Shown: piece after piece, positions 1,729 through 5,323 of the stretch
Layout: every line of letters begins with the position of its first letter
How positions within the stretch are numbered: position 1 is the stretch's first letter
The notes under the pieces: model-generated
The model's database searches: none
Told to the model about the DNA's origin: nothing
What the model saw: only the letters and a program-made list of their open reading frames with translations
NCBI GenBank assembly: GCA_003557485.1
Contig: PWOI01000031.1
Coordinates: 1-5,323 of the forward strand
Source of the DNA: Elusimicrobiota bacterium
GTDB taxonomy: Bacteria > CG03 > SLGR01 > PWQF01
Direction of reading: 5' to 3'
Length of the DNA: 5,323 nt
Translations under genes and position numbers: made by a program

Positions 1729-3702
1729 TTATTTTAACCCCAATTTTGCCTGATTTTCATCCGAAAACTGGCTTGCCTTGAATTTAAATTCAGTGGCTTC
1801 CCGGTTGCTTGAAACATCTATCTTTCTGGCGCTTGTTCCAATCAGCTCTAAAAGATTATTATTATTAATTTCCTTAACTGACTTATAAACTCGATCACGA
1901 AACCGTTTAGCGTAATTATTTGATACTTTCCTGGGCCCCTGCAGCCGTTTTATTAGCTCTTCGCTGCTTATTACAACCTCTGTATTCGCATTTTTCTTAT
2001 CATAAAAGGTTTCTCCAATCCATAATAATAACGGGGGCGTTAAAGCCTCTTCTGCTCGGTCAATGAAAGATAAAAATTTATTGCTGATTCGCTTTAATCT
2101 TACGGGGTCGTTTAAGGCTTCTTCCATTTCAGGACTTATTTCGATAATTACCCTGTCGTCTTCTGTCCGTTTAAATTCGGTAAAAGGACTGATCCCTCTT
2201 GAGCCGGAAGAAAGATCGTAATATTTGCCTACCACAAACCGCAGAGAGACCATCGGCTCATGGAGCCGGTCGAAATCCCTGTAAGCCCGCATGAGATAAC
2301 GGCGCCGGCTGTCAAAATCCTTTTCATTAATTCCCATGACATCCTTTGCAAAATCATCAAAAGGAGTATCGATAATACGTTTTAAATGCACCCGGGTGCC
2401 TTCATCGTTCAACCAGACCATGGCCTCGCTTAATCCCCACATTAAAACCCTGGCCCGCTGGCGGGTCATTCCCCCGCCGGAGCGGGATATTTTTATCTTT
2501 CCCCCGTCAACGGGAATATCGATTATAACTTTCGGCCGTCTTGAAAAAAGAAGGGCCGCCGCTTCTCCGAAAACCCTGAGAAGGTCAAACGTAGTGCGCC
2601 TGCGAACAGATAACGGACCTTCTATCTTTTCTTGAGGAAAGGTTTCCAGTTTCTTAAAGAGCGAATCAAAATACTGTTCCCCCTTGTCCTGGCCCTTCTG
2701 CCGGTTGGGACTTGAGAGAAGTATTTTTTTAATCATATTCCCTGAAGCATTATACTGATCCATGAGCCTGCCGGCAGCTGAAAGATCTCTTTCGTTGGCT
2801 GTCCAGGACCGGCCGATATCATCCGCGGATTCCCCCCACCCTAAAAGATTTTCAATGAGGATCCAGTCATTGTTCTTGCGGACTTTTAAAAAAATATCCG
2901 CAAATTTATCCTGATAGTGTTTTTCTATTTCCGGAGATAAAAGTTTTGTGTAAAATTCTCCGAAATTTATGCGGTTCGAAGGAGAGAAATCCGAGTGGAG
3001 AAGTTCTACTTCCGGAGCCGGTGAATATTTATAATTCCGGGTGAAAGGCAGGCGGTATATTTGATTCAGGTTTGACCCTCCCGGGTCCCCTTCCAGTCTT
3101 TTTTTAAGAAGCCCTAGCATGCGGTTAAAAAGATCTTTTCTATGTTTCGGATCAGCCGGAAGAAATGACGGCTGAGGTCCCTTGTACCTTTCGTCGATAG
3201 GTAGAAATCCTTTGAAATTCCAGAGGACCTGGCAGTTCCCCGGGCTGGTTTGAATTATCGTTGAGACAGGGAAGGAAAAATTCGGAAGGACCATTCCTTT
3301 TGAAAGCATATCCTCTGAAAATAAATTTGCCGGAACATCATCTAAAAAAGCGCAGCCCAAGCCGGTAATGTCATCATGCTTGCGGGTATTTTTTACCAGC
3401 GCCGGAACGGAAAAGAAAACATTTAATTCAAGATCTTCGCTGAGCTTTAAAACTTTTTCGCAGAAAGAAGCGGTAAGATTTTTTGCGTAGACAGAATGGC
3501 CGTGCTGGAAATTTTCCTTAACCACCGCCATTTTTTTCAATGAAACTTTTACCGGCGGTCCCATGGGCTGCCCTGTTTTGCCGCTCTTTTTAAAAAAGAA
3601 AATTACGGCCTTGCCGCCGTTGATGTTGGCGTGGCCCACTAAAAATTTTCTGAGTTTTTCTGCCCTTTTAGAGGCTGTTTTTGTTTGAGTTTTTTCGCTC
3701 AT
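1729..3702 (-). CDS. Plasmid replication initiator with RepB-primase-like domain
   Basis: A 657-residue protein. Residues about 100-225 fit the archaeo-eukaryotic primase (RepB-primase) pattern: motif I GCAFLDDV with D121-D122, a second motif TSPGNCQVLW (152-161), and motif III around GDPGGSNLNQIYRLPFTRNYK (D206, 205-225). Residues about 298-352 (NERDLSAAGRLMDQY..IKKILLSSPNRQ..YFDSLFKKL) resemble the PriCT-like helical region that follows such domains. The C-terminal part (about 365-625) is basic and helical, with LTPPLLLWIGETF and SSEELIKRLQG suggesting a winged helix that would bind the iterons. No Walker A helicase motif is visible. It probably binds the origin and primes or starts DNA synthesis. 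The ATG directly follows the stop of the ribbon-helix-helix gene (TAAATG), and only a distant GGAAG precedes it, so translational coupling is likely. The gene is more GC-rich than its neighbours in its central part. Confidence 0.8.
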   Translation of the reverse strand: MSEKTQTKTASKRAEKLRKFLVGHANINGGKAVIFFFKKSGKTGQPMGPPVKVSLKKMAVVKENFQHGHSVYAKNLTASFCEKVLKLSEDLELNVFFSVPALVKNTRKHDDITGLGCAFLDDVPANLFSEDMLSKGMVLPNFSFPVSTIIQTSPGNCQVLWNFKGFLPIDERYKGPQPSFLPADPKHRKDLFNRMLGLLKKRLEGDPGGSNLNQIYRLPFTRNYKYSPAPEVELLHSDFSPSNRINFGEFYTKLLSPEIEKHYQDKFADIFLKVRKNNDWILIENLLGWGESADDIGRSWTANERDLSAAGRLMDQYNASGNMIKKILLSSPNRQKGQDKGEQYFDSLFKKLETFPQEKIEGPLSVRRRTTFDLLRVFGEAAALLFSRRPKVIIDIPVDGGKIKISRSGGGMTRQRARVLMWGLSEAMVWLNDEGTRVHLKRIIDTPFDDFAKDVMGINEKDFDSRRRYLMRAYRDFDRLHEPMVSLRFVVGKYYDLSSGSRGISPFTEFKRTEDDRVIIEISPEMEEALNDPVRLKRISNKFLSFIDRAEEALTPPLLLWIGETFYDKKNANTEVVISSEELIKRLQGPRKVSNNYAKRFRDRVYKSVKEINNNNLLELIGTSARKIDVSSNREATEFKFKASQFSDENQAKLGLK

Positions 3703-3948
3703 TTATTTTCTGTCTTCCGGCAGGGGTTTAACTTTCTTGTCTTTGAAAAACTCCTCTAAAGCCGTATTAACAACTTCGGATTTACTATATCTTTCCCAAT
3801 AAGCATAACCGTCGACTTTATCAGTAAGAGACTGTTTTAAATAATAAGTGTGTCTCTTAAAAACTTCTTGCGGTTCCTTTTTTTCCGGTTTGCTCTTTTC
3901 TTTTTTTCCCTTGGAAGGCTCGAATATATCTTTTTTTCCTAATGCCAT
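3703..3948 (-). CDS. Small ribbon-helix-helix protein, likely ParA partner
   Basis: An 81-residue protein with a lysine- and glutamate-rich, probably disordered N-terminal tail (1-28) and a CopG-like ribbon-helix-helix domain: strand KRHTYYL (31-37), helix A QSLTDKVDGYAYWERY (39-54) and helix B SKSEVVNTALEEFF (55-68). This layout, a flexible charged arm plus a ribbon-helix-helix domain encoded immediately after parA, is that of small centromere-binding proteins of type Ib partition (ParG/omega-like). It would bind repeats near its own promoter, repress the operon and stimulate ParA ATPase. An arginine finger in the tail, known in ParG, is not evident because the tail has lysines. Its ATG overlaps the parA stop by 10 bp and has AAAAGGAG about 9 nt upstream. 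It abuts rep, so it might also influence initiator level. A pure copy-number repressor is the alternative. Confidence 0.75.
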   Translation of the reverse strand: MALGKKDIFEPSKGKKEKSKPEKKEPQEVFKRHTYYLKQSLTDKVDGYAYWERYSKSEVVNTALEEFFKDKKVKPLPEDRK

Positions 3949-4715
3949 AATTTTTTACTCCTTTTTATAACTTCTTTTACTAATTTTTTATACGCTTCTC
4001 CTCCGGTTGATGCGGGGGCGTAAGAAAAAATGGTTTTGCCGTAAGAAGGAGCTTCCGCAAGACTTACACAGACCCGCACTTCTGTCTTTAAAACCTTGTC
4101 TTTAAAATTTTTTCTTATTAAAGATAAACTGTCATTCGTAAGGTTTCGCCTGTAATCAACCATATTGGGAAGAATGCCCAGGATACGGAGATCCGGATTA
4201 AATTTCTCTTTAATGCGATTGATGGAATCGATGAGTTGCTTTAATCCTTCAAGGGACAGATAATCGCATAACACAGGAATGATTATTCCGTCTGAAGCGG
4301 CTAACGCATTGACAGAAAGTAAATCCAGGGACGGCGGACAATCCACTAAAATAAAATCGTAATCATTTTTAATAGGAGAAATGGCTTCTTTTAATACCAT
4401 TTGATTATGAGAGACATCGGCCAGGTTGACAGAAGAGTTTGAAAGATCTATTTTCGCGGGGGCAAGAGACAGATTCTCTGTTGAAGTCGGGACAATTATA
4501 TCGCTAATATGAACATTATCAATTAATACGTCGTACATCGATTTTTTTATTTCGGAAGGTTCAATTGCTAAAGAAAGAGTTGCATTGGATTGAGGTTCAA
4601 TATCGATAACAAGAACTTTATAACCCTTTAAAGCTAATCCTGCTCCTACATTAATGGTAGCAGTTGTCTTACCGGTTCCACCTTTTTGATTAACAAAGCT
4701 TAATACTTTATTCAT
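3939..4715 (-). CDS. parA: ParA/Soj-family partition ATPase
   Basis: A 258-residue protein of the Walker-type ParA family. It shows the deviant Walker A motif KGGTGKTT (11-18) with signature lysine K11 and K16, the A' motif DIEPQSN (38-44; the family usually has DxDPQ, here E40), and Walker B ILVDCPPS (122-129, D125). The length and the lack of an N-terminal helix-turn-helix place it with Soj-like and type Ib plasmid ParAs, so autoregulation should come from its partner. It would bind DNA nonspecifically as an ATP dimer and move plasmid copies apart with the ribbon-helix-helix protein encoded next. It is the first gene of the parA-rhh-rep operon. The ATG at 4715 fits family N-termini (MNKVLSFVNQKGG), but the perfect AGGAGG is 18 nt away; an ATT start at 4724 would have 9-nt spacing. 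Confidence 0.93.
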   Translation of the reverse strand: MNKVLSFVNQKGGTGKTTATINVGAGLALKGYKVLVIDIEPQSNATLSLAIEPSEIKKSMYDVLIDNVHISDIIVPTSTENLSLAPAKIDLSNSSVNLADVSHNQMVLKEAISPIKNDYDFILVDCPPSLDLLSVNALAASDGIIIPVLCDYLSLEGLKQLIDSINRIKEKFNPDLRILGILPNMVDYRRNLTNDSLSLIRKNFKDKVLKTEVRVCVSLAEAPSYGKTIFSYAPASTGGEAYKKLVKEVIKRSKKLWH

Positions 4716-4726
4716 AATATTAATAT

Positions 4727-4769
4727 GTAATAACCTCCTACAATTATTATTAACAATATAGGTAATAAC
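4727..4769 (+). repeat. GTAATAAC direct repeat in the parA leader
   Basis: GTAATAAC occurs at 4727-4734 and 4762-4769, 35 bp apart, in a leader of about 20% GC (4721-4800). The first copy abuts the Shine-Dalgarno; the second lies between it and the -10. Short repeats at this place are what a ribbon-helix-helix partition protein would bind, but in DNA this AT-rich an 8-mer can recur by chance. Confidence 0.3.
4734..4739 (-). promoter_or_regulatory. Shine-Dalgarno AGGAGG with long spacing to parA
   Basis: AGGAGG on the minus strand is separated by 18 nt from the parA ATG. In the same open frame an ATT codon (4724..4722) is 9 nt from it. Either initiation is inefficient from the ATG, a leader fold shortens the distance, or a rare ATT start adds three residues (MNI). 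Confidence 0.55.
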
Positions 4770-4778
4770 TTTAATAAA

Positions 4779-4807
4779 AGAATATAAAATACAGTCTCAG
4801 ATGTCAA
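4779..4807 (-). promoter_or_regulatory. parA: Promoter of the parA-rhh-rep operon
   Basis: Minus strand: perfect TTGACA (4807..4802), a 17-nt spacer, and TATTCT (4784..4779), four of six consensus positions. It lies about 64 nt upstream of the parA ATG. TTGATACA (4825..4818) lies upstream of the -35, as at the 1003-1031 promoter. Confidence 0.55.
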
Positions 4808-4813
4808 GGGAGG

Positions 4814-4939
4814 GCGCTGTATCAATTGCCGGCAGTTGCCGGTACTTGATACCGAGTGAGGGAATCGCAGCTAAGCTGCGACAGCAATTCAATATCCTGA
4901 AAGGATATTTGAGTTGCTGCCGGAACGAGGGAACAGCGC
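4814..4939 (+). other. Branched RNA-like domain closed by a long-range helix
   Basis: GCGCT (4814-4818) pairs with AGCGC (4935-4939), enclosing three hairpins. The first is 4819-4852, GTATCAA/TTGATAC with inner CCGGC-AGTT-GCCGG. The second is 4865-4881, TCGCAGC-TAA-GCTGCGA. The third is 4882-4919, a stem of 17 pairs with one bulged T (4910), one G-U pair and a GAA loop. This makes a four-way junction of cloverleaf type. It is not a tRNA: lengths and loops do not fit. Confidence 0.55.
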
Positions 4940-5030
4940 GGCCGGAATACAAAAATAAGTTTGAATTCGGATCCCGGTGGTGGGCGGGTATGAGCGGAGA
5001 GAATGAAGCGGAATAATTCTGTGGTGAGCG

Positions 5031-5073
5031 CCGGGATAAGTTTTCCGGAAGAATGACGGAGATCTTATCCCGG
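5031..5073 (+). repeat. 10-bp perfect inverted repeat with inner stem
   Basis: CCGGGATAAG (5031-5040) is the exact reverse complement of 5064-5073. The 23-nt interior can add TCCG (5044-5047) against CGGA (5057-5060), extended by a G-U and a U-A pair. No T-run follows on either side, so it is not an intrinsic terminator. Confidence 0.65.
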
Positions 5074-5087
5074 GAAAAGCGAACGTA

Positions 5088-5116
5088 TTTTCCGCCTGCC
5101 TTTTTGCAGCGGAAAA
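5088..5116 (+). repeat. 11-pair hairpin TTTTCCG / CGGAAAA
   Basis: TTTTCCG (5088-5094) pairs with CGGAAAA (5110-5116). After a bulged C, CTGC (5096-5099) pairs with GCAG (5106-5109), leaving a 6-nt pyrimidine loop. CCTGCC (5095-5100) could instead pair at long range with GGCAGG (5213-5218). Confidence 0.55.
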
Positions 5117-5159
5117 CACAGAGTTATGCAGCGCAATGAACGCAGCTCATAAAAGCGAG

Positions 5160-5211
5160 CCCCGGGCGACAGCACGGCCGGCCGCCCGAAAGGGCGGACG
5201 GGGACATCCCC
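5160..5211 (+). other. GC-rich GNRA-tetraloop hairpin domain
   Basis: CCGCCC (5182-5187) and GGGCGG (5192-5197) form a 6-bp stem capped by GAAA, a GNRA tetraloop on the plus strand (its complement is TTTC). An outer helix CCCCG (5160-5164) / CGGGG (5199-5203) can close the domain, or GGGG (5200-5203) can pair with CCCC (5208-5211) over an ACAT loop. The two are mutually exclusive and could be a switch. Confidence 0.55.
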
Positions 5212-5228
5212 AGGCAGGGAAGGGAAAG

Positions 5229-5251
5229 TTAACATAACAGGGTTATGTTAA
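5229..5251 (+). repeat. 10-bp perfect hairpin with 3-nt loop
   Basis: TTAACATAAC (5229-5238) and GTTATGTTAA (5242-5251) are exact complements around AGG. It is followed by GGCGTAAG, not a T-run on either strand, so an intrinsic terminator is unlikely. Confidence 0.65.
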
Positions 5252-5279
5252 AGGCGTAAGTGTTTCGGCAAGGCAGTGT

Positions 5280-5300
5280 CTGATAAGACAGTCTTATCGG
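5280..5300 (+). repeat. 9-bp hairpin with a G-U pair near the right edge
   Basis: CTGATAAGA (5280-5288) pairs with TCTTATCGG (5292-5300) over loop CAG, with T5281-G5299 as a wobble. AAAGGAGG follows directly (5301-5308). Confidence 0.55.
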
Positions 5301-5323
5301 AAAGGAGGCTTTAGCGAAGGCAG

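Follow-up and report, generated by a model that had tools for sequence, protein, structure and literature searches.

Does the gene-free, GC-rich end of a small bacterial contig, lying beside a plasmid partition operon, encode a large RNA, and if so, of what kind? The window analyzed here (the whole stretch of DNA, 5,323 bp) is the entire contig G000:C149 from a 2.07-Mb genome bin. From its letters alone, a first-pass annotation had proposed an unrecognized large structured RNA at 4811-5323, and had suggested looking past position 5323, searching Rfam with Infernal (group II introns, ROOL, GOLLD, OLE) and collecting homologs for a covariation test. The proposal remains the best reading in light of covarying homologs, a negative Rfam search and wobble pairs favoring the plus strand. 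The region is in our judgment probably the 5' part of a plus-strand non-coding RNA (ncRNA), large and structured, that belongs to a previously undescribed class on plasmids; this confidence applies to the structured-RNA class and not to any role in plasmid maintenance. Sequence comparison places its relatives on small plasmids from Omnitrophota and from the phylum to which the window belongs (NCBI "Elusimicrobia" metagenome-assembled genomes, MAGs).

A Structured, Gene-Free Region at the Contig End

GC content rises from 17% at 4700-4799 to 53% at 4800-4899 and stays at 48-62% onward, bearing out the sharp jump initially described. The GC-rich, gene-free feature starts near 4804-4814, while position 5323 is the contig end, falling inside the feature. 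The originally proposed extent was therefore right in marking a structured region without genes but not in its boundaries. In homologs the feature continues beyond the point corresponding to the window's end, and their comparison indicates that the best-conserved stretch of the RNA family spans and passes it. The longest open reading frame (ORF) in the region is at most 76 aa on either strand, and no Pfam matches were obtained for the two ORFs tested. Gaps relative to the nearest homolog include indels of 1, 2, and 7 bases, thus no reading frame is kept. A 71-aa plus-strand ORF (4801-5016) was discarded as a gene, as were the minus-strand ORFs. With neither a domain match nor a conserved frame being found, the earlier view that over 500 bp hold no credible gene is upheld.

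The plus strand of 4801-5323 has a predicted minimum free energy (MFE) of -220.2 kcal/mol, compared with -164.7 +/- 5.7 kcal/mol for dinucleotide shuffles (z -9.7; 0/100 as low), and its complement reaches -177.0 kcal/mol (z -7.4). The fold contains at least eight predicted hairpins (4820-4851, 4865-4881, 4882-4919, 5031-5073, 5088-5116, ~5182-5197, 5228-5252, and 5278-5301), in agreement with the eight or more, mostly stable, reported at the outset. The purine-rich linkers noted between them are present, but in part they may be tandem G.A internal loops within long irregular helices rather than simply single strands. No sigma-70-like plus-strand promoter was found at 4719-4804 and no terminator was found for the RNA; it should be noted that sigma-70 signals may not be those of these bacteria, which may also terminate transcription by other signals.

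Homologs and Distribution

A blastn search of 145 genomes, in which most short matches were due to chance, detected a homolog in G006 (same order as the window; 80-90% identity over two blocks), a second, diverged copy on that same contig, a third copy on G006:C78 and one further homolog in G011, from the window's phylum. Scanning GTDB contigs with a topoisomerase VI-like (TopoVI-like) protein yielded 23 loci, from bins assigned to Elusimicrobia, Omnitrophota, and Patescibacteria, many with a window-related, GC-rich noncoding stretch of up to ~1.4 kb on the opposite strand, downstream of an HU/IHF-like gene. A covariance model of the core (R1), built from five diverged copies aligned with MAFFT, found further copies in 5/384 Omnitrophota genomes. 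One Omnitrophota bin contains four RNA copies on four contigs; such closely related copies are not independent, independent lineages are few, and the homolog genomes are MAGs, in which binning errors are possible. The Patescibacteria bin of locus L051 is probably mis-binned, its origin being doubtful since R1 matched 0/378 other Patescibacteria genomes and the ParA gene of L051 differs very little from its counterpart in the Omnitrophota locus L050.

The RNA region totals ~0.6 to 1.3 kb, reaching ~1.3 kb in Omnitrophota. A 3' module of the RNA occurs in tandem duplicate in L031 (191-306 and 462-581), each unit being 88% identical to L021 copy a (L021a). Reduced versions that keep Pa and Pb (see below) and have lost most else occur in L061 (~9440-10093, minus strand) and L087 (~6920-7130, plus strand), the latter near a primase and a recombinase and away from the histone operon described below. 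When plasmids and phages were searched with the region by blastn, nothing was returned beyond 28-bp chance matches in Lak phages. Exact-pattern scans of viral contigs gave six matches in total, which we attribute to chance because each lies inside a protein gene; as far as these patterns reach, this does not appear to be an IMG/VR phage RNA.

Plasmid Setting and Neighboring Genes

Plasmid genes (ParA, replication initiators, recombinase) are present on the homolog contigs in G006 and G011, and L051 (~7.6 kb) and L086 (~10.6 kb) are taken as closed circles on the basis of direct terminal overlaps of 50 and 127 nt, respectively. In the window, the gene for a 657-aa protein in the partition operon (Table 1) is probably of the plasmid replication/primase type, a role suggested by operon position and motifs. 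Two perfect 20-bp direct repeats (TCCTACCGAGTTGGATAACA) with 23-bp spacing lie just past this gene (1686-1728). A probable membrane-anchored thermonuclease-like protein is encoded at 1099-1530 on the minus strand (weak NCBIfam and PHROG matches). Near the contig start, GGGGGTTATTCACG occurs twice, 60 bp apart (113-121 and 173-181; chance expectation 0.03 TTATTCACG), and these repeats are possible iterons or origin sites.

The divergent orientation relative to parA, noted by the first-pass annotation, holds for the window and L021a only, whereas the constant neighbor in most homologs is a convergent HU/IHF-like gene. The operon beside the RNA region encodes TopoVI-A-like, histone-fold, and HU/IHF-like proteins; its spans include L021:2593-4225, L032:2920-4154, L051:5069-6702, L052:4696-6335, and L083:4434-6249, on small plasmids, some of them closed circles. 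The RNA 3' end is tail to tail with the HU/IHF-like gene in L021, L032, L049-L054, L057, L058, and L083, the Omnitrophota-type cassettes (L049-L054, L057, L058, L083) being counted where that gene is followed by 75 nt or more. In L031 the two are separated by a toxin-antitoxin-like pair, no RNA was found within the 196 nt remaining on the contig in L040, a different ORF accompanies the reduced version in L061, and the RNA has different neighbors in L081, L082, and L084-L087.

This operon has been published under the name "IHF histones," with IHF-like and topoisomerase VI-like genes, from Omnitrophota, Wallbacteria, CG03, and Elusimicrobiota; that paper makes no mention of an adjacent noncoding RNA, and its section on the operon none of a plasmid setting (PMC11390915). 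The operon, which consists of protein genes, flanks the RNA in most homologs and occurs in the same phyla. The window contig lacks this cassette, and none was found elsewhere in the window's genome. The TopoVI-like protein gave a weak AlphaFold model (pLDDT 68) with topoisomerase VI A as the best PDB match (E 2e-4), and a tblastn search with it against plasmids and phages returned nothing. On the circular L086, which also has a DNA-methyltransferase-like ORF, the RNA does not lie next to the distant TopoVI-like gene, so that RNA and operon can be separated.

A Conserved, Covarying Core

Three elements make up the family core: the long-range helix P0, the hairpin Pa, whose tip is invariant, and a three-way junction. 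In our model the core measures ~230-350 nt and is closed by P0, inside which lie Pa, the variable hairpin Px, helix P1 (bearing a tandem G.A step), and the junction. The junction comprises P2, the hairpin Pb with an invariant AUAAU/AUUAU tip, and a helix Pd-Pc with the near-invariant loop AAAUUGAGG. When copies are folded singly, most share P0, Pa, Px, P1, the P2-Pb-Pd/Pc junction, and a hairpin Ph, with fold z-scores of the core domain ranging from -5.3 to -19.2 in 12 homologs.

The suggested covariation test was carried out on these homologs. In the MAFFT alignment of the five copies, which was not fitted to structure but whose 39-pair structure was read from one row (L051), 92% of cells are paired and 17/39 pairs have changed on both sides. 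The covariation score is 0.451, compared with 0.168 +/- 0.033 in shuffled alignments (0/500 shuffles reach it), and sliding the partners by one column lowers pairing from 92% to 44-45%. Among 14 distinct copies, 27/39 core pairs have changed on both sides (0/500 shuffles as high) in an alignment (A6) that was fitted to the model and whose counts therefore lean toward pairing; L021 copy b (L021b) and L087 count for little, being poorly aligned in the core. The helices not covered by the model (P0, Px, P1, and Ph) also covary, their percentages being favorable to pairing as the strands were chosen from the individual folds. One group has ACAGGGGAA/TTCCCCTGT as its P0 and a second group AAAAGAGAAA/TTTCTCTTTT, L032 has GGCAGGAAAAA/TTTTTCCTGCC, and the helix is weak in L021a and L086. 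Px and Ph are nearly wholly rewritten between copies with pairing retained. The Omnitrophota 3' modules covary as well (N, 10/57 pairs; M, 11/62 pairs). The conserved, covarying secondary structure expected of a large structured bacterial ncRNA was thus found.

The window copy is interrupted within the core, and the pairing of P0, P1, and Pd was assessed there in homologs. R1, which was built without the window, matches 5272-5323 with 23.7 bits (E 0.003-0.005; 3'-cut). The Pa strands are TTAACATAAC/GTTATGTTAA in the window, TTGACATAAC/GTTATGTCAA in L021a, and TTTACATAA/TTATGTAAA in L032. Domains I and II form most of the window's part of the RNA and have so far been seen only in the window's order. 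The domain I fold, so far found only in the window and L021a, keeps its pairing between the two (GCGCTGT/ACAGCGC to CCGCTGT/ACAGCGG; TATCAA/TTGATA to TATCAG/CTGATA), and the domain II closing helix reads TAGGAGC/GCTCCTA in L021a. Domain II also includes an inverted repeat (5031-5047/5057-5073) and GTGGGCGGGTADGAGCGRAG, which is common to the window and L021a and near-identical in L021b. At the sequence level, three pairs changed on both sides between the window and L021a point to conservation of these domains, a signal that is weak but consistent. An RNAalifold result for domain II was set aside, its inserted hairpins being mis-aligned.

Table 1. Features of the window, comprising the parts of the putative RNA and the neighboring operon (R1, covariance model of the core).
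Feature	Coordinates	Strand	Basis and details
5' part of large structured RNA	4804..5323	+	Fold z -9.7; homologous to L021:1932-2570 and other copies; interrupted by contig end
Domain I	4814..4939	+	Closing helix 4814-4820/4933-4939; hairpins 4820-4851, 4865-4881, 4882-4919; GA-rich linkers
Domain II	4989..5151	+	Closing helix TATGAGC 4989-4995/GCTCATA 5145-5151; inserted hairpins 5031-5073, 5088-5116
GC-rich hairpin between domain II and core	5182..5197	+	Predicted by MFE fold
5' strand of long-range helix P0 closing the core domain	5212..5227	+	Assigned by position before Pa; partner beyond contig end
Hairpin Pa	5228..5252	+	Apical ACATAAC/GTTATGT invariant; compared with L021a, L032
5' half of three-way-junction core	5265..5323	+	Core model R1 match
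P1/P2 5' strand	~5265-5276		Core sub-part
Pb	5278-5301		Core sub-part
Pd 5' strand	5307-5312		Core sub-part; GGCTTT
Pc start	5313-5323		Core sub-part
ParA-type partition ATPase, divergent from RNA	3939..4715	-	AAA_31, E 2e-61
Small Arc/CopG-like protein after parA, putative partner/regulator	3703..3948	-	Weak PHROG matches to Arc-like repressors, E 1e-3
657-aa protein, probable plasmid replication/primase type	1729..3702	-	PHROG 3123 (unknown function), E 2e-6; homolog in G004:C217

Strand and Nature of the Folded Molecule

G-U wobbles occupy 20 core cells, 8 of them from a single conserved U-G position, compared with 2 cells for A-C, which would be wobbles on the opposite strand. The sense fold is also stronger than the antisense fold in 13/13 full-length copies, and together these observations identify the folded molecule as the plus strand. 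We take this molecule to be RNA, single-stranded DNA being less likely. A DNA element would nonetheless account for part of the evidence. It might fold as a single strand or a cruciform, or present a row of palindromes to binding proteins, and serve as partition centromere, transfer origin, single-strand origin, or recombination site for the plasmid's tyrosine recombinase, with Pa and Pb as the binding sites. The feature is always on plasmids or mobile elements and lies beside parA in two cases, the minimal versions in L061 and L087 retain both Pa and Pb, and both strands, including those of the homolog core, fold far above chance. However, the strand bias of the wobble pairs argues against it, most copies have no ParA neighbor, and no centromere or origin is known to need long-range helices spanning 200-300 nt, nested multiway junctions, and a conserved asymmetric loop such as AAAUUGAGG. 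A ParABS centromere is similarly disfavored, with no direct repeat family found in 4600-5323 and most homologs lying away from parA. A DNA element is therefore unlikely overall, retaining a small but appreciable share of the probability because the Pa and Pb tips (ACATAAC/GTTATGT and AUAAU/AUUAU) are invariant, near-perfect palindromes that could bind protein.

If the molecule is a structured RNA, it could be a member, too diverged for Rfam to recognize, of an already described class of catalytic or mobile RNA (group I or II intron, circularly permuted group II intron, retron ncRNA, omega RNA), as its size, multidomain build, and mobile setting would fit. In the suggested Infernal search, cmscan against Rfam 15 gave only chance-level matches far below family cut-offs for the window and 14 homolog loci, in keeping with the initial failure to recognize a family. 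Recognizable ROOL, GOLLD, OLE, and group II introns are excluded on these grounds; group II introns, including circularly permuted ones, were rejected with no Domain V/VI match, and ROOL, GOLLD, and OLE with no covariance-model match. In addition, the neighboring ORFs include no recognized reverse transcriptase, TnpB/IscB, or homing endonuclease, no gene is interrupted, and modules are freely gained and lost, leaving a divergent known class very improbable. Equally improbable, and largely refuted, is a pile of unrelated REP- or MITE-like palindromic repeats without joint function in a plasmid gap, a picture that suits the module gain and loss, the tandem duplication in L031 and the variable hairpins, but not the constant order of core helices across phyla; nor would independent insertions produce the covariation of P0, P2, and Pd seen between strands separated by 40-300 nt.

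Proposed Architecture and Role

The structured RNA may be viewed as a string of modules built about a conserved core, with lineage-specific modules added on the 5' side here (domains I/II) and on the 3' side in Omnitrophota (M/N). It is very probably transcribed, presumably from a promoter of its own next to the partition genes, and would fold into a stable particle, either by itself or together with proteins from the plasmid or the host, among which the products of the adjacent IHF-like/histone operon are candidate partners. Such a particle could act in trans to keep the plasmid, by way of copy number or segregation. Plasmid maintenance is the likeliest guess at a role, if a tentative one; a service to the plasmid is suggested by confinement to plasmids, separate copies on the contigs of one bin, structural constraint, and position in the backbone. 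More speculatively, and with distinctly less assurance, the class (up to ~1.3 kb) might be a backbone component of plasmids in histone-bearing bacteria, building an RNA or RNA-histone/IHF particle needed for copy control or segregation. The constant setting, in which the RNA faces the IHF-histone/TopoVI-like operon in a plasmid backbone, offers a testable handle on function. More broadly, the noncoding plasmid DNA of uncultured phyla holds RNA families missing from Rfam.

Comparison With Known Large RNAs

Few bacterial RNA classes are this large and complex, and the roles of ROOL, GOLLD, and OLE are poorly understood; the present family would add to this handful of giant RNAs with an unknown job. 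OLE is a structured ncRNA of ~600 nt, mostly from Bacillota, whose precise function is unknown. Our RNA resembles it as a large structured ncRNA but has no Rfam match. In the open literature searched on large structured RNAs in connection with Omnitrophota or plasmids, no description of the family turned up, an unpublished or paywalled one being possible. ARAGORN found no tRNA in the window or L021, and the tRNA islands that often, if not strictly, harbor ROOL and GOLLD were thus not seen here.

GOLLD exceeds 800 nt, has one conserved and one variable region, and is found on mobile elements (PMC12286853). It is similar to the present RNA in its very large size, its combination of conserved and variable regions, and its mobile setting, but it is set in phages, whereas the RNA described here is set in plasmids, without Rfam match or tRNA association. 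ROOL (rumen-originating, ornate, large; ~520-660 nt) is likewise a large structured ncRNA on mobile DNA, and both ROOL and GOLLD form cages (PMC12286853). In contrast to ROOL, the RNA described here has no Rfam match, a different core and different conserved loops, no tRNA island, a modular length of up to ~1.3 kb, and hosts among Omnitrophota and Elusimicrobia relatives. A very abundant 520-nt lncRNA on a Lactobacillus salivarius megaplasmid, which is treated as ROOL (PMC12286853), lowers the plasmid/chromosome ratio from 1.61 to 1.16 when deleted (PMC5643018). This lncRNA, with its modest effect on copy number, is the nearest precedent for such a role in the present family. Comparison across these classes could reveal a shared role of giant mobile-element RNAs in keeping the elements that carry them.
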